From Brachycybe producta (lineage: Eukaryota > Arthropoda > Diplopoda > Playtdesmida > Andrognathidae), in NCBI GenBank assembly GCA_036925085.1, contig JAUPFP010000061.1:175001-239000 (forward strand): a stretch of DNA of 64,000 nucleotides, written 5' to 3'. Position 1 is the first letter of the stretch, and every line of letters starts with the position of its first letter. The translations under genes were made by a program, and so were the position numbers. The notes beneath the pieces were generated by a model. That model made no database searches. It saw only the letters and a program-made list of their open reading frames with translations, and had not been told where the DNA came from. Shown in pieces: positions 1,483 through 62,334 of the stretch.

Positions 1483-2208
1483 CCCAGGGGATATAGACAT
1501 TTGCCCTATGGACCCTTGCCGTAAAGTCATTTCACCTAAAACCATTTGCCCTAAAGGGACATTTGCCCTAAAACCATTCGCCTTAAAGGGACATTTGCCC
1601 TAAAACCATTTGCTCTAATACCATTTTCCCTAAAAGGACATTTGCCCTAAAACCATTTGATGTATAGGGAGATTTCCTCTAAAAACATTTGCCCTAAAAC
1701 CACTTTTTTGTTCTCTCCTTTTGTATGGTTTAGTGTCTTTCAGTGGAATAGGTTCTGTGTGCCACATGAGCACAAAAATTGCCAAATAACGTAAATTTGC
1801 ACTACTGATTTGGGCAAATGTCCTTTTAGGGCAAGTGGTTTTAAGGCAAATGTCCCTTTAAGGCAAATAGTTTTAGGGCAAATGTCCCTTTAGGGCAAAT
1901 GATTTTAGGGCAAGTGTCTAAAGGGCAAATGTCCCTTTAGGGAAAATAGCTTTAGTGCAAGTCTCAATTGAGCAAGTGTCTTCAGGGGGGGCAATTGTGG
2001 GGCAAATATTTTTAGGGAAAATGGTTTCAGGGCAAATATCCCTTTATTGCAAATGGCTGTAGGGCAAATATCCCTTTATTGCAAATGGCTGTAGGGCAAA
2101 TATCCCTTTAAGGCAAATGGTTTTAGGGCACATGGTTTTTTGGCAAATGTCTCTTTAGGGCAAATGATTTTAGGGCAAATATCCTTTTATGGCAAATGTC
2201 CCTTTAGT
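1483..2208. mobile_element. Foldback-like element FB1, copy 1 (ATTTGCCCTAAA arms)
   Basis: Left arm (about 1495-1700) is a degenerate tandem array of ATTTGCCCTAAA units in which ACC and GGGAC alternate as linkers. Right arm (about 1808-2208) is the same array in reverse complement (TTTAGGGCAAAT). Between them lies a core of about 105 bp without the repeat. The left edge carries GGATATAGACATTTGCCCT. The same edge, core and arms recur at 46.2-47.1 kb and 55.65-56.2 kb, so this is a dispersed unit rather than a local expansion. No protein is encoded. Minisatellite inverted arms around a core resemble Drosophila FB elements; no target-site duplication could be fixed. Confidence 0.7.
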
Positions 2209-26673: not shown

Positions 26674-27368
26674 AGATACTAAGTCGTCCGGACGAGATGA
26701 ATATCGTGGGGTATAAACTCTAAAACCTGAAACAAAATGCATATTAGAATTGGCTGAACACTGTACTAACATAAGTGCGGAACAACAAAACCATTTTTTA
26801 AATTAAATCATGTGATTTTTTTTTTTACATTCCAGACAACCTGCATCAAGCTTAATTTAACGTAACACCATCTAATCACGGAAATAAAAAAACAAGCATA
26901 GTGTTCTTCCAATTCTGTATGCATTTTGTTTCGGAGTTTAGAGTTACCCTACAATGTTAATCCTTTCATCCAGACCCAACTTAGTATCTTGTCCGGACGA
27001 CTTATAGTATCTTGTCCGGACGACTTATAGTATCTCGTCCGGACGACTTAGTATCTCGTCCGGACGACTTAGTATCTCGTCCGGACGACTTATAGTATCA
27101 CGTTCGGACGACTTAGTATTTCGTCCGGACGACTTAGTATCTCGTCCGGACGACTTAGTATCTCGTCCGGACGACTTATAGTATCACGTTCGGACGACTT
27201 AGTATCTCGTCCGGCCGACTTAGTATCTCGTCCGGCCGACTTAGTATCTCGTCCGGACGACTTAGTATCTCGTCCGGCCGACTTAGTATCTCGTCCGGCC
27301 GACTTAGTATCTCGTCCGGACGACTTAGTATCTCGTCCGGACGACTTAGTATCTCGTCCGGACGAGAT
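26674..27368. mobile_element. Foldback-like element FB3 (CGTCCGGACG minisatellite)
   Basis: Right arm 26979-27368 is about 18 units of a 20-23-bp repeat containing the palindrome TCGTCCGGACGA plus CTTAGTATC. The left arm has one unit in opposite orientation (AAGTCGTCCGGACGAGAT, 26681-26698). The core is itself an inverted repeat: TAAACTCTAAAACCTGAAAC near 26714 mirrors GTTTCGGAGTTTAGAGTTA near 26930, and ATGCATATTAGAATTGG mirrors CCAATTCTGTATGCAT. Each unit has three CpGs in an otherwise CpG-poor region. It lies about 60 bp past the poly(A) signal of the membrane-protein gene. Confidence 0.7.
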
Positions 27369-27537: not shown

Positions 27538-30500
27538 TCAGAAATTAGTCAGTTCTTGAAAATCGATTTGCTTGTACCGTGGACAGTTATCTAAACTGAC
27601 CACACTTGATTCATCTCCACTGTCATAAACACTGTCCGAACTGGACATGAATCCTGTGGCTACTTCTTGATGATGATGATGATGCTGATGCTGATGCTGT
27701 GACTTCCAAGGTGAAAAATAAAGCTTCTGATCAACAGTGTTGGTAGTTGTGGTGGTGGCGGCGGCGACGGCGACGGCGGTGGACACCGAATACAAAACAG
27801 GAGCTTGAATAAAAGTTTCTTTTTCTTCTTCTTCTTCTCTTTGAAATCCTATCAGAGAAAACCGACGGATCGATGCAATTTTTTCTATTTCATCGGCCTC
27901 TTTAGACAGATTAGTTAATGATATGGTTTTACGAATTTTCGACACGGACTTGGATTCTTCCTGCCACACAAGAGATCGTTTGACCATTTCTTCGTCATCT
28001 TCGTTTTCGTTTTCTGGTAGATTCAACTCTAAATAAACAGCTGAATCTGGAGTAATATCTTGATGATTTTTGGCCGTTTGACACACTGTCGTGTAAGTGT
28101 CCTTTTCGAGTGGCAATGAAAGGTTGAACGTTGATGTGGTACCACCATCGGAATGCTCAATGAATGAAGAGTTCATTTTTTCTTTTTGTGTCGATATTTT
28201 AGCCGATTTTTCACCACTTTCGCATGATGGTGGTGATGATGATGATGATGAGGAGGAGGAGGAGGAGGAGGATGGTCCAGCTCTCTTGTCAACTTTGACC
28301 GTTTTACGAAACCTCGGTAAGAAATAACGCAACTTGTGCTGTTTGGTGGCCACCGTCGTAAAATCCAAAGAAGGATCTTGCGACGAATTGGATAAACTGT
28401 CGTCGGCATCCACTCCACAGCTAACTTTTGTACGTGGCATCTCGAAGACATTGCGAGGAGGAAGAGGGGGAGGAAGAGGAGGAGGAAGAGGAGGAGGACG
28501 AGGATGAGGAAGAGCAAGAAATCCATCTGACGTTCGACCGTTGTCCGTCGAGTCACACGAAACGTCCAGAAAACTTCGTGGACGATCACAGTTCAATTTG
28601 TTATTGTAATAGTATTGTTCATGGAAGTCGTGACTTGGAGATGAGCCGTCGGCAAGCGAACCATTTCTGTAATGTCTTTGGGGACTGTACATATAAAAAC
28701 GTACGTCGAAACTGTTGCCGGCACTTTCGGAACTACACGACGTACTACTACCACAACCACCGGTAGTTCCACCGAACTGAAGCCAACATCTTCTACTACT
28801 ACCACTACTACAATTTCTGTTTGAAGACGCAGATGGCGTTTCAGTATGTGGAAATGTTCTTCTTCCTTTTGCTACATGCTGTTGATCCTTGTTCAGTCTC
28901 TGAACTCGATGCGAATGATAAACCACTGAATTGTTGTCATCATGATAGCAGTTGTCAGTAGTAGAATATTTATGTGGCGATGGAATGTACACTTGAGTTG
29001 CACGTGACACCATTAACACTTTATTGGCAAACTCCTTCACTTTACGTTTGCCACTTTCTAAATTTCTAGGTTTACGTCGAACAGACGTCGAAGAAGAAGA
29101 AGAAGCCGTCACTTTCTTCTTGACGTGTGTCAAGTGTTCGTCAGTTGTGGTGATCGACGCCACATCGTGACTTTTGTGAATTCTGTTTTCACATTCAATG
29201 CGTCTATTGTTGCTGCTGCTGCTACAACTGCCAAAGAATCTTTTATTGAATCTCGTTTTTACAGAAGCATAATGATGTTCGTTTTCTAGATATCCACTTC
29301 TTCTGACAGTTGAACGACGATCGATTTCTACGACATTGTCACCGGCACCGTTCCACTGAATGATCTCTTCTTGTTTTATGGATGGTAAGGTGGTAAGTCC
29401 TTTGGATGGCGAAGGACGGACTGAAGATGCTGACGAAATAGATGATGAAGACGATCTACTGGACCGTGCCAGAGATCGAATACCAGCAGCCACGGTTGTA
29501 GAAACTGTTCGACGAGTTCTCTGAAGAGCCAACTGTGAAGATTGTAAGATATGTTGTGGCGAGATTCGACAAGAACCTCCTCCATGTTGAAAGGTTTTTA
29601 GAATTGGTGGTGGCATCGTGGAGAAGTTATTGTCGATTGCCATTGGAACGTCACTATCCGTATTTGGAACGGGACGTCTGGTTCGTTCCCACCTCTCGAA
29701 GGTGAAGTTCGTTCGTGCTACGGCATGACTCGATGCCGTGCCATATATGCCGAACATGCCGTGACAATTGTAACCTTCGTCGCTACTGTGACGACGTCTT
29801 TCGGAAAAACGCCGTAAGCTTTCGGCCGGAGCGTGCCAGATGGTCGAGTGTTTACGAAGAGAAGACCAAAGAGTCGATGTTGCACTTGTGCCGACCAGTC
29901 GACGACACGGATGTCCACATTGACTCCAAAAGAGTCCACACGTCAAACTCAGACACATGAGCACTTCACAGAAGCGAAGCATGTTCTGATACAACCACCT
30001 CGGTCCGATCACTTGACCAACGGTCAACAACACATTATCGTACGAGAAGACGATGCCAATGATCACGACAACACATAGTATCAATGAGAAAATGCAAGTG
30101 AAACGTGCTGCTTTAGCAGAAAGACACAAGCATGGTTTTGGTAACTTTTTCGGTAGTTGAGTACCTTCGATGTGAAGTTTTGTAAGTGTCACTCGTATGA
30201 TCTGACTTTGACGACGCATCGATGCCTTGTAGATTCTCTTATAAAGAAGACAAGTCAAAGAGGCAATAGCAGATGACCACAAAACCGAAACAGCCTTTAG
30301 AATGCGATGAAGGCAAAGTCGTTTGGTTTCATCTAAATTAGGATCAATTGCGGTCAAAACGATAACACCACCTAGTGTTCCAACTATGTAGGGTAACACT
30401 AGAACGTTGACTGTAAAGGGATTGTTGAAGGTTTTGCTCTTTTGCCATTGTGTTTCGGTGTAAATTCCAAGACCACCAACAAAACACATCATGGTGGATT

Positions 30501-31410
30501 GAAGTAGGAATGTTGGAGACTCGTACACGAGTAAATAGTAGGCTGTAGATGGGTGGCCACCGCCACCGTCATTGCCATTACCACTTGCGTCCAAATTGAA
30601 CATGTACAATGCGCGCAGAAGGCAAACGAGGCACAATAGCAAATTACTGATTATTAAATATCCTCTTTGACATAGAGTAAGACAAACAATGTGATGTATT
30701 AGTGTATAAGAGGTGAGTCCTGTCAAAATAGCGAAAAACATTCCGAACACGTACATGTGCCATTGTAAAGATTTGCTAATGTTACTGTAAGAATTGGATA
30801 ACATTTGTGTTTTGTTTTTTAAGTCCAACTCTACAAACACCACGGAAGAAGAATTTCTGTCAACTGTTGTCAAATTGAAAGTGGGATCATTCTGTAAATT
30901 ATTATTATCAAAATTCGAACTGGATGTTTTTTCGAAGGAGGAGGATGATGATGATGTGGTGGTGGTGGTGGTGGTCAAGGTGGTAGAGGTGATTGAGAAG
31001 AAGACGGAAGACGTTGTCGATGAAATTGGTTGTCGTTGAGCACTACCATCAGATGTCTTGCTGTTAGTGAGGTGTGACTTTGAGATGATGTTGGTGGCGG
31101 TGTTGGTGGCTACTGATGGAGTAGATTCAACACCAATGTAAGGTGATGATGACACTGTAATGTCACTAATGTTGGAAGAGTGGTTCAGAAATATTCGAGC
31201 TCGATCTGTTTCTTTGACATCACTCCATAAAGTGTCAGTTTGGTTTGCAGTTTGAAAACTGCTGCTACTGCTGCTTTTGCTGTTTTTGTTACTACTGGTG
31301 TTGTTCACTTGAATTGTGTCACAAACAACAACAATAATGGTGGTCAGTAGTGACGTTAATATGATTGTCAGCAGTGGTCTCGACGTTTGAAAATTGCTGT
31401 TGAACTTCAT
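27538..31410 (-). CDS. PRRT3/PRRT4-like multi-pass membrane protein, single long exon
   Basis: 1290 codons, ATG at 31410 and TGA at 27538-27540. Residues 1-30 look like a signal peptide (LLTIILTSLLTTIIVVVC). Residues 31-214 are Ser/Thr-rich with several N-x-[ST] sites (NNTS, NHSS, NISD, NLTT, NRSS). Residues 216-495 hold about seven hydrophobic spans, including LLLCLVCLLRALYMFNLDAS and PTFLLQSTMMCFVGGLGIY, the 'RAL-x-LF-x-D' then 'P-x-LL-x-x-x-x-x-CF' pattern I associate with the proline-rich transmembrane proteins PRRT3/PRRT4. Residues 500-1290 are a low-complexity tail: Arg/Ser-rich, poly-Ser, PPPLPPPLPPPLPPR (possible SH3/EVH1 ligand) and poly-His. Membrane topology and family are inferred; function in invertebrates is unknown to me. 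The absence of introns over 3.9 kb is notable. Triplet repeats (GAT, GAG, TCA) explain the antisense frames. Real by length, signal peptide and coherent domain order; family name less certain. Confidence 0.8.
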   Translation of the reverse strand: MKFNSNFQTSRPLLTIILTSLLTTIIVVVCDTIQVNNTSSNKNSKSSSSSSFQTANQTDTLWSDVKETDRARIFLNHSSNISDITVSSSPYIGVESTPSVATNTATNIISKSHLTNSKTSDGSAQRQPISSTTSSVFFSITSTTLTTTTTTTSSSSSSFEKTSSSNFDNNNLQNDPTFNLTTVDRNSSSVVFVELDLKNKTQMLSNSYSNISKSLQWHMYVFGMFFAILTGLTSYTLIHHIVCLTLCQRGYLIISNLLLCLVCLLRALYMFNLDASGNGNDGGGGHPSTAYYLLVYESPTFLLQSTMMCFVGGLGIYTETQWQKSKTFNNPFTVNVLVLPYIVGTLGGVIVLTAIDPNLDETKRLCLHRILKAVSVLWSSAIASLTCLLYKRIYKASMRRQSQIIRVTLTKLHIEGTQLPKKLPKPCLCLSAKAARFTCIFSLILCVVVIIGIVFSYDNVLLTVGQVIGPRWLYQNMLRFCEVLMCLSLTCGLFWSQCGHPCRRLVGTSATSTLWSSLRKHSTIWHAPAESLRRFSERRRHSSDEGYNCHGMFGIYGTASSHAVARTNFTFERWERTRRPVPNTDSDVPMAIDNNFSTMPPPILKTFQHGGGSCRISPQHILQSSQLALQRTRRTVSTTVAAGIRSLARSSRSSSSSISSASSVRPSPSKGLTTLPSIKQEEIIQWNGAGDNVVEIDRRSTVRRSGYLENEHHYASVKTRFNKRFFGSCSSSSNNRRIECENRIHKSHDVASITTTDEHLTHVKKKVTASSSSSTSVRRKPRNLESGKRKVKEFANKVLMVSRATQVYIPSPHKYSTTDNCYHDDNNSVVYHSHRVQRLNKDQQHVAKGRRTFPHTETPSASSNRNCSSGSSRRCWLQFGGTTGGCGSSTSCSSESAGNSFDVRFYMYSPQRHYRNGSLADGSSPSHDFHEQYYYNNKLNCDRPRSFLDVSCDSTDNGRTSDGFLALPHPRPPPLPPPLPPPLPPRNVFEMPRTKVSCGVDADDSLSNSSQDPSLDFTTVATKQHKLRYFLPRFRKTVKVDKRAGPSSSSSSSSSSSSSPPSCESGEKSAKISTQKEKMNSSFIEHSDGGTTSTFNLSLPLEKDTYTTVCQTAKNHQDITPDSAVYLELNLPENENEDDEEMVKRSLVWQEESKSVSKIRKTISLTNLSKEADEIEKIASIRRFSLIGFQREEEEEKETFIQAPVLYSVSTAVAVAAATTTTTNTVDQKLYFSPWKSQHQHQHHHHHQEVATGFMSSSDSVYDSGDESSVVSLDNCPRYKQIDFQELTNF

Positions 31411-31911
31411 GGGGTTGCTTTTGCCTGTTTAAATAAATTTGATCTGTTGTTTCCTCTTTTGTCTCCAATTGTATTGTTTTCGGATTTAAAAACATAAAGA
31501 AGAAGAAGAAGAAGAAGAAAATGAAACTGAAAATTTAAAAGGAAGGTGAAAGAAAATGATTCTAATTTTGTGTTGTTGGTTTGAGCAGTTGGTTGGATGA
31601 TGAGCAACTTCCAAATTTTGAAGCATTATTAGAATGAATATATTTTCTGGTTTCTTTAGTTGTTTTGTAGTCATCTCATCAGCCAGTTGTTTTTATAGGT
31701 AACTGGATGGCGGCGGCAGTACTTTGAAATGATCCTCAGCAGCAGCAACATTGTCTGTATCAACTTTGTAGTTGCAAGAAAACACCTTAAAAAATAAAAC
31801 AAACAAAACAAGTTTACTGATTAGTTAAATAGATTTAAAAGGAAAATAAGTACATTTGTAGGTTTACATTTTGTCTTATTTAATTTGTGTGTAGTTTTTT
31901 TTTAAGTTTCT
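31411..31911 (-). promoter_or_regulatory. 5' UTR/upstream region of the membrane-protein gene
   Basis: No frame continues upstream of the ATG. A GAA run lies at 31499-31520. On the minus strand a pyrimidine-rich TTTTTTAAG before about 31785 could be a 3' splice site of a 5' UTR exon; this is a guess. Confidence 0.3.
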
Positions 31912-44504: not shown

Positions 44505-45815
44505 ATCTCAATATATTGACTTTAGGTTAGGTTGAGGTTATATTAGGTTTGGTTTGGTTAGGTAACTATACCTAACCTCACCTAAGCTAACCAAACCAAA
44601 GCCAATATTATATATATAATATCCCAGGTCTGTGTGTGTGTGTATGTGTGGAGTAACAAAAACCATTGAAGCATGTCGGAATTTATATAAATTTAAATAA
44701 ATGAACCATTTTTTTTTCTCAAGGTCAACTATATGTTGAACTCTTCCTTTGGAAAGTGTAGAAGGGAGAGAGAGAGAAAAGTAGGAGGGGTGAGGGGAAA
44801 AGGTTGGAAAGTGTAGAAGGGGAGAGAGAGAAAAGTGGGAGGGGGTGACTGAAATTGAAATGAAAAGAGTAAAAAAAGGAAAAAACGACGCGCATGCGCA
44901 CAATTGCCTGTGAATTTTGCTCCCGTCATTTATGACGGGTTACCCCACTAGTATTGAAATAGTATCTGTATATATTAGCTTAGTATCTCAATATATTAGC
45001 TTAGTATCTCAATATATTAGCTTAGTATCTCAATATATTAGCTTAGTATCTCAATATATTAGCTTAGTATCTCAATATATTAACTCAGTATATCAACATA
45101 TTGACTTAATATCTCAATATATTGAGATTGTTAGGTTAGGTATACCTAACCAAACCAAACCTAAAATAAGTCAATATATTGAGATACTTAGTCAATATAT
45201 TGAGATACTAATCAATATATTGAGATACTGAGTCAGTATATTGAGATACTGAGTCAGTATATTGAGATACTGAGTCAGTATATTGAGATACTGAGTCAGT
45301 ATATTGAGATACTGAGTCAGTATATTGAGATACTGAGTCAGTATATTGAGATACTGAGTCAGTATATTGAGATACTGAGTCAGTATATTGAGATACTGAG
45401 TCAGTATATTGAGATACTGAGTCAGTATATTGAGATATTGAGTCAGTATATTGAGATACTGAGTCAGTATATTGAGATACTGAGTCAGTATATTGAGATA
45501 CTGAGTCAGTATATTGAGATACTGAGTCAGTATATTGAGATACTGAGTCAGTATATTGAGATACTGAGTCAGTATATTGAGATACTGAGTCAGTATATTG
45601 AGATACTGAGTCAGTATATTGAGATACTGAGTCAGTATATTGAGATACTGAGTCAGTATATTGAGATACTGAGTCAGTATATTGAGATACTGAGTCAGTA
45701 TATTGAGATACTGAGTCAGTATATTGAGATACTGAGTCAGTAAATTGAGATACTGAGTCAGTAAATTGAGATTCTAAGTCCATATATTGAGATACTAAGT
45801 CCATATATTGAGTTA
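44505..45815. mobile_element. Foldback-like element FB2 (21-bp minisatellite arms)
   Basis: Right arm 45170-45790 is about 27 copies of a 21-bp unit, TATTGAGATACTGAGTCAGT plus A, nearly identical in the middle and diverged at the ends. Left arm 44965-45115 has about seven units of the related TATCTCAATATATTAGCTTA in opposite orientation. Between them is a short core with GTTAGGTATACCTAAC. A second piece (AACATCTCAATATATTGAC and a GGTTAGG hairpin, 44505-44600) lies left of an inserted Helitron. The unit is 7 codons, so frames on both strands stay open across the array without being genes. Confidence 0.68.
44605..44951 (+). mobile_element. Helitron-like copy inside FB2
   Basis: Starts in AT-rich sequence before CCCAGGTCTGTGTG and ends with the hairpin CCCGTCATTTATGACGGG, TTACCCCA, CTAG at 44951, then T. 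It has two copies of the GTGTAGAAGGGRGAGAGAGA-type purine block where 34736-35270 has four. Confidence 0.6.
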
Positions 45816-46164: not shown

Positions 46165-47110
46165 GGCCATTTGCCCTAAAACCACTTGCCCTACAAACTG
46201 TTTGCTCTAAAACCATTTGCCCTAAAGGGACAGTCATCCTAAAACCATTTGACCTAAAAGGACATTTGCCATAAAGCCATTTGCCCTAAGGAGACATTTG
46301 ACCTAAAACCATTTGACCTAACATTAACACCAGGATATAGACATTTGCCTTAAAAGAATTTGCCCAAAATCCACTTTCCCTAAAACCATTTGCCCTAAAT
46401 CCACTTTCCCTAAAACCATTTGCCCTAAATCCACTTTTCCTAAAACTATTTGCCCTAAAGGGTTATTACCCTAAATACACTTGCCCTATATAGGCATTTG
46501 CCCTAAAATCATTTGCAGTAAAAGGATGTTTGAAACTAAAACTATTTGCCCTAAATGGACATTTGCAATAAAACCATTTGCCCTAAAACCATTTTTTTGT
46601 TTTCTCTTTTCATACTGTTTAGTGTCTTATGGTAGAGTATGAGTGCAAAGGCAAACTGTTAAGGAAACTGCCACCACTTAAACTTAAAATTTTAAAAGGC
46701 ATGTCACAATCTATCAGAGGGATACATGGAATGAATTAATGTACATTTTTTTCTACTGCTTCTTTATGTCAAATGCCATTTAGGTCAATTGTTCTTTGTA
46801 GGTTAAATACATATTCAGGTCAAATGTCTTTTTAGATAAATTCCCCTTCAGGTCAAATGTATTTTTATGTCAATTGCCTCTTTAGCTGAAATATACTTGT
46901 AGGTCAAATGGCTATTTCGGCCAAATGACCCATTAGGTCAAATGCCTTATCAGTTCAAATGTCCTGTCAGGTAAACTTGGTTTTAGGTGAACCATTTTTC
47001 TAGGTCAAATGCCTCTTTAGGTGTAATGCCTATTAGGTCAAACATTGTTTTATGTCAAATGCGACTTTATTTTAAACAACTCTAGGTCAAAGGTTTGCAT
47101 CAGGCCAATT
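46165..47110. mobile_element. Foldback-like element FB1, copy 2
   Basis: The left array of ATTTGCCCTAAA units runs 46165-46585 and includes an internal left-edge motif (AGGATATAGACATTTGCC at 46333). The core resembles copy 1 (TTTTCATACTGTTTAGTGTC). The right array at about 46780-47100 is strongly diverged (AGGTCAAATG units). Confidence 0.62.
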
Positions 47111-55649: not shown

Positions 55650-56215
55650 TAGCAGGATATAGACATTCTCCCTAAACACACTTGCCCTGAAGCCATTTGC
55701 CATGAAGTCATTTGCCCTAATGCCAATTGCCCTAAAGGGATGGTTGCCCTAAATCCACTTGCCCTAAAACCATTTGCCCTGAAGGGCTGTTTGCAGTAAT
55801 GCCATTTGCCCTAATGAGACATTTGCTCTAAAACCACTTGCCATAATGGGACACTTACTCTAAAACCACTTGCCCTAAAAAGGACATTTGCCCTAAAACC
55901 ATTTGCCCTGAAAGGATGTTTGCAGTAATGCCATTTGCCCTAATGAGACATTTGCCTAATGGGACACTTACTTTAAAACCACTTGCCCTAAAAGGACATT
56001 TGTCTTAAAACCACTTTTTTTCTTCTCTTCTCATAAGGTTTATAGTGTCTGTCAGTGGAGTATGTTAAATAGGTTCTGCGTACCACAGGCATGCAGATAA
56101 CACCAAATGACTTATATTTAGACTGCTGATTAGGGTAAACGTCCCTTTTGGGGAAAATGGTTTTAGGCCAACTGTCCATTTAAGGGAAATGGTTTTAGAG
56201 CAAGTGTCTTACACT
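55650..56215. mobile_element. Foldback-like element FB1, copy 3
   Basis: AGGATATAGACATTCTCCCT at the left edge, array of ATTTGCCCTAAA units to about 56010, core matching copy 1 (GTGTCTGTCAGTGGAGTATG, AATAGGTTCTG), and a short inverted right arm (GGTTTTAGGCCAAC, AAATGGTTTTAGAGCAAGTG). Confidence 0.68.
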
Positions 56216-56367: not shown

Positions 56368-56875
56368 TAGGAATGGGACATTCGAATCCTCGAATCTCGT
56401 GAATCTTGAAAAATATTCGAGATTCGAAAAGTCAAATCTTCGCGCTTTTTTCGTCTTTCGAATCTTTCGAATCCTAACTTTAAAAAAAAATGTTAAAAAC
56501 TTTGGTAAAATTAGTTTTAACTCCATTCACGTCCAATATAAGCGTTCACTAACAAAAAACGGCGATTGTTGCATTTTCGGTGGTACCCGGATCACCAATA
56601 TCATCACCTTGTGGCGACCCTGAGTGTCACACTTTTTTATTATTAATAATTCAATATTTAATATTATTTCATTCATTTGAATCTTCTTAATGAATAATAT
56701 AGGATTCTTATAGAAAGGATTCAAGATTCGGGAGATTCGAGAACCTTTTAGGATTTGTATTCGCATTCGGAATCGAGAGATTCGAGAACCTTTTAAGATT
56801 CGGATTCGGAAGATTCGAGAACCTTTTAAGATTCGGATTCGGATTCGAGAAAATTTAGGATTCGTCCCACCTCTA
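56368..56875. mobile_element. hAT-like element F, copy 2, TSD CTTTAAAC
   Basis: Starts TAGGAATGGGACATTCGAA and ends GGATTCGTCCCACCTCTA; CTTTAAAC flanks it exactly at 56360-56367 and 56876-56883. Orientation is opposite to copy 1. The 8-bp duplication with short inverted ends is the hAT signature. The right subterminal region begins the GATTCGAGA repeats that expand further right. Confidence 0.82.
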
Positions 56876-56932
56876 CTTTAAACTAATTTTCCAAAAAAAA
56901 GTGGGTTTTTGAGTTGTACCATCCTTCTAGCA

Positions 56933-57580
56933 TAGAGGATTCTTATATGAAGGATTCGAGAGATTCGAGAACCTTTTAGGATTCGGATTTGCATTCGGAT
57001 TCGAGAGATTCCAGATTAAGGAGATTCGAGAACCTTTCAAGATTCGGATCGAGAGATTCGAGAACCTTTTAAGATTCGGATTCGAGAGATTCGAGAACCT
57101 TTTAAGATTCGGATTCGAGAGATTCGAGAACCTTTTAAGATTCGGATTCGAGAGATTCGAGAACCTTTTAAGATTCGGATTCGAGAGATTCGAGAACCTT
57201 TTAAGATTCGGATTCGAGAGATTCGAGAACCTTTTAAGATTCGGATTCGAGAGATTCGAGAACCTTTTAAGATTCGGATTCGAGAGATTCGAGAACCTTT
57301 TAAGATTCGGATTCGAGAGATTCGCGAACCTTTTAAGATTCGGATTCGAGAGATTCGAGAACCTTTTAAGATTCGGATTCGAGAGATTCGAGAACTTTTT
57401 AAGATTCGGATTCGAGAGATTCGAGAACCTTTTAAGATTCGGATTCGAGAGATTCGAGAACCTTTTAAGATTCGGATTCGAGAGATTCGAGAACCTTTTA
57501 AGATTAGGATTCGAGAGATTCGAGAACCTTTAAAGATTCGGATTCGGATTCAAGAAAAGTTAGGATTCGTCCCACTTCTA
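56933..57580. repeat. 33-bp minisatellite derived from hAT-F subterminal repeats
   Basis: About 16 units of GATTCGAGAGATTCGAGAAC plus CTTTTAAGATTCG (57010-57560). The block ends with GGATTCGTCCCACTTCTA and CTTTAAAC again (57581 on), then repeats the 56876-56930 flank (GTGTTTTTTTGAGTTGTGCC). It is therefore a tandem segmental duplication of the right end of hAT-F with its flank, followed by array growth. Confidence 0.85.
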
Positions 57581-57639
57581 CTTTAAACTCATTTTTCGAA
57601 AAAAAGTGTTTTTTTGAGTTGTGCCACCCTTCCAGCTGA

Positions 57640-61545: not shown

Positions 61546-62334
61546 AAATATTTTGATGATGTCATGCAAGCTACAATCCTATTGGTTCATTTATCAAGTT
61601 TGAAGTTTAGAATTTACAAAAAAAAAATGCCATACATAAAAAACGTTTATTTTTGACAACAGCAACATATAAATATATTTAATTTTGTTTTTTAAAATCT
61701 TCTAGTTTCTACAATATTTTCAAGAAACCTGGAAAAAGGACCAAACCTTCTTTACTTATTAAGGTGGCTAATGCTATATCGGCTATAGACTTTTTATAAA
61801 ATTTAAACGAAAACTCGTCACTAGAAACAAAATTATGAAAAAAAATCAAACTGTTTTCAAAACTAGAATGGTAAAAGATCATGCTAAACGTTTTTTCATG
61901 GCATTATCTCAAAAAATAAACATTTGATAGCAGTTCGATAGCAGTTTGAAATTGATCTGTTTTTTGGTTTTTCCATTGACATTTCATAAAATCCATTTTC
62001 GCCTGTTTCAAACTGTCATAAAACGTTTATTTTTAAAGATATTATCATGAAAAAACTTTTGGTATTATTACCAACTAATCTAATTTCTAAAACACATTGA
62101 ATTTTATCCTAATGATTATCCTGAAAAACGTTCGCTTGAAAAAATATAATGTTTCTGAAAGCCGTGGGTGGAGGGGGAAGATACCTCCTATAGAACATAA
62201 GACACAGCAGTGGGGACATCCAGAGGATGAAAACAAAATAATTTTCTATTCAGGCACCTTATTGCATTCATAATTTCGAATTTAAAAGATGGCAACGTAA
62301 TACTTGCATTTTAACCTAATTTTAATGGGACCTT
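61546..62334. other. No gene; contains dispersed repeat Y
   Basis: 61925-62100 is the inverted partner of 11615-11755 (CAAACTGTCATAAAACGTTT, ATTATTACCAACTAATCTAA). The rest is AT-rich without features. Confidence 0.45.

Follow-up and report, generated by a model that had tools for sequence, protein, structure and literature searches.

A stretch of 64,000 nucleotides from the Brachycybe producta assembly (G000:C61:175001-239000, referred to here as the window) contains short elements, named FB1, in which tandem minisatellite units stand in inverted orientation on both sides of a common core, raising the question of what kind of sequence this is and what moves it. Reverse-transcriptase-like frames and long reading frames were also present in the window. 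The initial annotation had placed three FB1 copies at 1483-2208, 46165-47110 and 55650-56215, and all three were recovered at essentially these coordinates (Table 1). The 12-mer of the arrays was matched 95 times in the window (up to 2 mismatches, both strands), 85 times inside the three copies, compared with 6 to 18 matches in each of ten first-order Markov simulations of the window. The description of the three as copies of one design held, with the correction that copy 2 was divergent (23% from the family consensus where alignable, with a long gap) and was preceded by an extra left-type array, which is either a truncated neighbour or an internal duplication. The consensus right end was absent from copy 1, next to which an (AT)26 run was located at 2214-2265. 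No right end was found for copy 2, and copy 3 featured a short right array and a degenerate right end, TGTCTTACACTT. As no readable target duplication flanked window copies 1 and 3 (4 of 9 bases alike in each), the ends of FB1 were defined on copies from the rest of the genome.

Table 1. FB1 copies and the unoccupied target site in the window (window coordinates)
Feature	Position	Strand	Remarks
FB1 copy 1, whole	1488..2207	+	left end GGGATATAGACATTTGCC at 1488
FB1 copy 1, arms	left array ~1498-1698; right array ~1812-2207	+	
FB1 copy 1, core	1697..1817 (approximate)	+	9.9% from family consensus
Extra left-type array	46165..46321	+	directly upstream of copy 2 left end
FB1-related copy 2, divergent	46332..47110	+	left end 46332; left array to ~46594
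Copy 2, core	from ~46586	+	alignable only partly
Copy 2, right array	~46771-47110	+	variant unit GGTCAAATG; set off from core
FB1 copy 3	55654..56213	+	left end AGGATATAGACA at 55654; left array to ~56010
FB1 copy 3, core	56009-~56136	+	18% from consensus
Unoccupied target CTATAGAAC	62188..62196	+	in a dispersed repeat; empty counterpart of FB1 copy L037

A search of the assembly (295.3 Mb, 442 contigs) with 116 bp of the copy 1 core identified 514 candidate places, the best 40 of which were scored and had 77-100% identity to the query. The fortieth scored match was window copy 1 itself, and the remaining 39 were fetched with approximately 2 kb per side to give, with the three window copies, a sample of 42 sites. 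One of these, L009, was an allelic twin of window copy 1 (99.3% identity over 4,372 bp). With up to 3 mismatches allowed, the core was preceded by forward ATTTGCCCTAAA-type units and followed by reverse units at 42 of 42 sites, so that inverted units accompanied every core in a sample drawn from the best 40 of the 514 places. At least two units adjoined the core in both arms at 39 of the 42, the exceptions being L039 with a single left unit, window copy 2, and L029 where another repeat, identified by eye, sits between array and core. The enlarged interiors of L024 and L029 were, by eye, insertions of foreign repeats, and both were dropped as candidates for FB1 elements with a larger interior of their own.

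The shortest arms had a single unit and the longest had 93 on the left side or 101 on the right side, in agreement with the differing unit numbers initially described, and arm length reached about 1.5 kb (L023). Units were spaced by 15 bp (n=558), 17 bp (n=375) or 16 bp (n=24), the 15- and 17-bp spacings accounting for 933 of 1,005 when the 25 most frequent spacing classes are taken and L009 is counted. This pattern agrees with the alternating ACC and GGGAC linkers noted earlier and explains the 32-bp dimers given by a repeat finder. The core measured about 125-130 bp rather than the approximately 105 bp first given. At L013:2448-3030 the first FB1 element had a neighbour, a second one of opposite orientation with two partial cores, whose structure resembles a rearrangement between copies.

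A common left and a common right end were first recognised by reading 12 short copies, from which the strings for the end searches were taken. The ends are fixed and slightly unequal, GGGATATAGACATTTGCC on the left and GGGTGTGGGACATTTGCC on the right, both read inward. Consensuses of 24 bp, GGGATATAGACATTTGCCCTAAAG for the left end and GGGTGTGGGACATTTGCCCTAAAG for the right end read inward, were derived from the 19 copies in which 7 or more of the 9 flank bases were duplicated at fixed edges, a set that differs partly from the copies with 8 or 9 matching bases described below. Both consensuses consist of a common GGG, five unlike bases and an identical inner stretch of 16 bp. The left-end 23-mer was located at 525+519 places genome-wide (1,044 in total; reversed control 0+1) and the right-end 23-mer at 445+481 (926 in total; control 0+0), each with up to 3 mismatches, and a core 23-mer had 355+368 near-matches (723; control 2+0). 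These counts indicate a copy number of several hundred to about a thousand. Fixed inverted ends were therefore present at many loci, as in non-autonomous DNA transposons with terminal inverted repeats (TIRs).

Target duplications were examined in the 40 copies whose two ends each had no more than 6 mismatches, window copy 2 and L046 being dropped. Mean flank identity at fixed edges reached 0.583 for a length of 9 bp, compared with 0.255-0.300 for lengths of 5-8 and 10-12 bp, a peak solely at 9 bp and thus a duplication of constant length. With 3 bp of slack, 8 or 9 of the 9 flank bases were alike in 19 of the 40 copies, as against 0.7% of 1,560 pairs of flanks taken from different copies. Six further short copies were found by their ends alone (a seventh, on C12, was L047 over again). 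Among these, C32:1769747 had 9 of 9 bases at fixed edges, C4:6613614 and C3:13166916 had 8 and 7 of 9 after a one-base shift by eye, and the other three had 3, 4 and 5. The duplications were 65% A+T compared with 66% for the flanks and had a weak C-TTT-W-N-W-A-C preference.

The joined flanks of the 40 copies were also compared with the window and the fetched loci, and an unoccupied site was identified in one case. In L037, CTATAGAAC flanks FB1 on both sides inside another copy of the dispersed repeat that carries the unoccupied window target, and a single CTATAGAAC with the same surroundings was also present at L020:2558. L022 was rejected as a second empty site, its alignment spanning the junction without a clear duplication.

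It is highly improbable that FB1 is no transposon at all and represents inverted minisatellites that segmental duplication or rolling-circle insertion has dispersed. The 21 of 40 copies with fewer than 8 of 9 matching flank bases would fit such an origin, which the fixed ends, differing flanks and empty site oppose and the 9-bp-specific peak contradicts outright. A single segmental duplication with common flanks, the alternative named in the initial annotation, was ruled out because the copies are spread over many contigs with differing flanks and differing 9-bp duplications. The proposed core search and alignment had thus yielded fixed ends and a target duplication, and the earlier view, of a mobile family of foldback type that is dispersed and non-coding, was supported by the inverted units at all 42 core sites and by their differing flanks.

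Together, the fixed ends, the 9-bp duplication and the empty site argue that FB1 is a non-autonomous DNA transposon with minisatellite TIRs. The reading that we favour, and consider probable, is that of a miniature cut-and-paste element mobilised by a Mutator-like transposase acting in trans. Its TIRs would be stacks of the 12-bp unit at 15- and 17-bp spacing, closed by GGGATATAGACATTTGCC and GGGTGTGGGACATTTGCC, and the Mutator-like transposase supplied in trans would bind these ends. The repeated units would probably act as multiple putative transposase binding sites, by analogy with the Drosophila element Galileo (P superfamily), in which the tandem repeats of the long TIRs hold extra transposase binding sites according to the portion of the source available (PMC3688188). 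The transposase would excise FB1 and reinsert it by a staggered cut with duplication of 9 bp, and between jumps each arm would grow or shrink separately by tandem duplication. The FB1 copies would derive from an internally deleted ancestor, of which the core of about 130 bp would be a remnant.

Separate changes in the two arms were evident from the largest arrays. In L023 a left arm of approximately 40 units of 32 bp faced a right arm of approximately 60 units of 15 bp. In L041 the left arm again comprised approximately 40 units of 32 bp, nearly identical to each other, and the right arm approximately 8 units of 17 bp. These differences indicate that each arm expands locally and independently. 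Units in a single arm had a mean identity of 0.815 (70 arms), those in opposite arms of an element 0.808 (29 elements) and those in different elements 0.807 (1,192 pairs), all units having been chosen with up to 4 mismatches, a choice that narrows the range. These nearly equal values lend no support to inter-arm copying, and copying between arms as the main process was rejected on this basis and on that of the unlike large arrays.

Cores diverged by 5-18% from the consensus in all copies except window copy 2 and by 15% on average from each other (window copy 2 and L009 excluded), the closest pair being 5.4% apart. Younger FB1 subfamilies may exist, since the order of the scored matches followed their similarity to copy 1. 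The core, annotated as conserved, is with copies 15% apart best read as inheritance from one deletion derivative, with nothing pointing to selection.

With respect to the class of the mover, elements of the hAT and P superfamilies usually duplicate 8 bp and Merlin elements 8-9 bp, and hAT ends read (C/T)A(A/G)NG. The 9-bp duplication and GGG ends of FB1 thus depart from the hAT pattern. The 9 bp agree with the 8-11 bp, usually 9 bp, listed for Mutator-like elements (MULEs) in the portion of PMC6446971 available. A mover from outside the MULEs is improbable; candidates would be Merlin, with similar duplications and GG-type ends, or a P-type transposase like that of Galileo, which, in the accessible part of its description, has foldback arms within the P superfamily (PMC3688188), and the 9-bp length of the FB1 duplications speaks against the usual P or hAT length.

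Inverted arrays of short units around a loop, as in FB1, are also the design of Drosophila Foldback and of sea urchin TU, the latter with units of about 15 bp. The duplication length of Galileo differs from that of FB1. Galileo resembles FB1 in its long TIRs with tandem repeats and differs in having a P-type transposase, as far as the available description extends. Tetris of Drosophila virilis, in the part of its report available, was assigned to Mutator by duplications of 8-10 bp and had no coding copy found (PMC4079207). Tetris is likewise a foldback family with tandem repeats in its TIRs, whereas its units are of 220 bp and three structurally complete copies were described in that portion of the report. 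The closest published design, judging from the sections available, is Tm1, a Mutator/Foldback family of Meloidogyne with 9-bp duplications, unequal 7-bp outer motifs and variable numbers of approximately 14-bp units, comprising a MITE-like class and a single coding copy of Phantom type among 61 elements analysed (Gross and Williamson 2011, PMC3169594). On the same partial basis both Tm1 and FB1 duplicate 9 bp and are decayed families with a non-coding, MITE-like class, and in both the TIRs are composite, with tandem units in variable number and with short, unequal motifs bordering the inverted repeat on its outer side. Their unit and end sequences differ, as do the one coding copy of Tm1 and none found for FB1, and the 61 Tm1 elements in the available account contrast with several hundred to about 1,000 FB1 ends and cores and arms of up to about 1.5 kb. 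FB1 is a real, structurally well-defined family of a type already known, and is new in the sense that it was not met in the literature searched.

The genome also contains a coding foldback family, R31. There were 21 matches to the MULE domain PF10551 in the genome, and R31 combined GGG ends, inverted 31-bp arrays and an open MULE frame, and also had shortened derivatives; the genome thus contains a MULE-type gene within a foldback family beside FB1. The open frame of 1,088 codons scored 28.9 bits for MULE against a cut-off of 27.6, and fell below the Pfam cut-offs for PHD (20 vs 24) and SWIM (16.2 vs 19.6). A PDB search with the last 312 residues gave weak PHD-type matches alone (best E 0.024), and an Ulp1-like protease stretch suspected by eye was confirmed neither by Pfam nor by the PDB search. 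L071 was a broken R31 copy between inverted arrays of the 31-bp unit. The R31 end GGGTCAGACTAAAACACGGAAAC, predicted from L076, was located at 140+137 places with up to 3 mismatches (control 0+0), and among 100 listed places the ends formed at least 15 pairs of 0.3-4.3 kb and at least 3 of 13-14 kb. Eleven pairs were examined for duplications: 7-8 of 8 bases matched at 8 bp in six, all 9 matched at 9 bp in three and all 7 at 7 bp in another, and the last had no duplication; in 110 mismatched control pairs one reached 7 of 8 and none 8 of 9.

The 13-14-kb R31 elements (C5:5398643-5412657, partly L070; C2:4229405-4243488; C38:889843-903077) each held two divergently oriented transposase genes, and the arms of L070 were 100% complementary (rounded) around a 233-bp centre. 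The target duplications of the C5 and C2 elements differed (CAAAAAACA vs CATAAATA), which suggests that the double element moves as one unit, assembly foldback being the less likely alternative.

R31 itself is unlikely to move FB1, since its duplications are mostly of 8 bp and its unit and inner end sequence also differ; the stricter 9-bp duplication and other unit of FB1 indicate that its mover is probably another gene. It is possible, although we lean against it, that FB1 belongs to the Rehavkus branch and is moved by a divergent relative of the R31 transposase, with a MULE domain, a weak PHD-finger match and minisatellite TIRs. According to the portions of these sources available, a minisatellite, a PHD finger and a 9-bp target duplication are listed for Rehavkus (PMC6446971), and the inverted termini of Rehavkus-1_TC include satellite arrays (PMC10218199), so that Rehavkus and FB1 share 9-bp duplications and a minisatellite in or near inverted termini. 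R31, which is Rehavkus-like, has GGG ends and inverted arrays too and shares the FB1 genome, and R31-related genes were diverse: of 119 candidates from a search with the R31 protein, 42 were scored and yielded 45 matches, among which 20 had 26-37% identity. On the other side, FB1 is without coding sequence, the R31 PHD match is below the Pfam cut-off, R31 duplicated 8 bp in 6 of 11 pairs and 9 bp in 3 of 11, and BLAST of the FB1 core against R31 loci gave only words of 10 bp. Flanks were read for 2 of the 20 divergent relatives, and FB1 arms were absent from 1.4 kb on both sides of C12:3725843 and from 1.2 kb on the 3' side, the one side read, of C3:11785715. By eye, approximately 240-bp tandem repeats (L075, C12:3728850-3730250) were located 3' of the C12 relative, whose frame of 1,049 codons is open, and this relative is by the same inspection a further coding element with a 3' array.

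A Phantom-type transposase with a FLYWCH finger is the feature that marks membership of Tm1. The possibility that FB1 is of the Phantom/Tm1 branch of MULEs and is moved by a Phantom-like gene appears rather unlikely. The Tm1 design, in the accessible part of its report (PMC3169594), is nearly identical to that of FB1 in its 9-bp target duplication, unequal outer motifs, approximately 14-bp units and MITE-like class. A candidate gene was furnished by a MULE family present in several reading-frame pieces in L054, L055 and L057, with fragments 93.8-94.7% identical. By eye, L055 had a RING-like C-terminal stretch; L057 included a translated AEAQA-type minisatellite near its end. Against a Phantom-like mover, the edges of these fragments as read had no FB1 arms, only single scattered units. 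An FB1 copy outside the sample of 42 was located inside L054 about 0.6 kb from the MULE fragment, with its own 9-bp duplication, GATACAAAT, by eye.

The initial annotation had left the mover of FB1 unnamed. The range has been narrowed to a probable Mutator-like transposase, and no transposase gene with FB1 arms was found among the MULE loci readable with enough flank. The MULE loci L049-L053, L056 and L058-L062 had no FB1 arrays in about 3.3 kb each, with single scattered units in some, and L072 and L073, the members of these families read with longer flanks, had one FB1-type unit each. Exact ends were also paired among the first 100 ends listed of the 1,044 left and 926 right, and three pairs 11-20 kb apart were considered as long FB1 elements. 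Their flanks matched at 6, 3 and 4 of 9 bases, for which reason they look like chance neighbours and were rejected, less firmly for the pair on C26 with 6 of 9.

Two other foldback-like structures were observed in the window. Inverted arrays of a 21-bp unit were located at 44950-45815 (left 44960-45123, right 45169-45812) around TTAGGTTAGGTATACCTAACC. The region 56370-57585 included arrays of a 33-bp unit (GGATTCGAGAGATTCGAGAACC...) with ends TAGGAATGGGAC and GTCCCACCTCTA and ACTTTAAAC on both sides, by eye, and by these ends looks like a hAT-like foldback element; a second right-type end was present after the 33-bp-unit arrays at about 57570. A separate array of 18 copies of a 21-bp unit, ACTTAGTATCTCGTCCGGACG, with the palindrome CGTCCGGACG within, was present at 26979-27365, about 170 bp past the point where a long reading frame on the minus strand (27538-31428) ends.

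We tentatively suggest that several foldback families in this genome were built independently, FB1 with 9-bp duplications, R31 with mostly 8 bp, a hAT-like third and a fourth with the 21-bp unit, the last two recognised by eye. If so, inverted minisatellite arms would be a recurrent convergent adaptation of unrelated transposases rather than the property of one lineage, for example for multi-site loading, with the 15- and 17-bp spacing as a binding phase. For certain foldback families, among them Tetris in the part of its description available, a few complete copies and no mover are known. FB1 offers several hundred to about 1,000 copies, with arms from one unit to about 100, in the same assembly as a coding foldback family, and this set makes it possible to test whether mobility depends on arm length, by what route the arms grow and which transposase recognises them.
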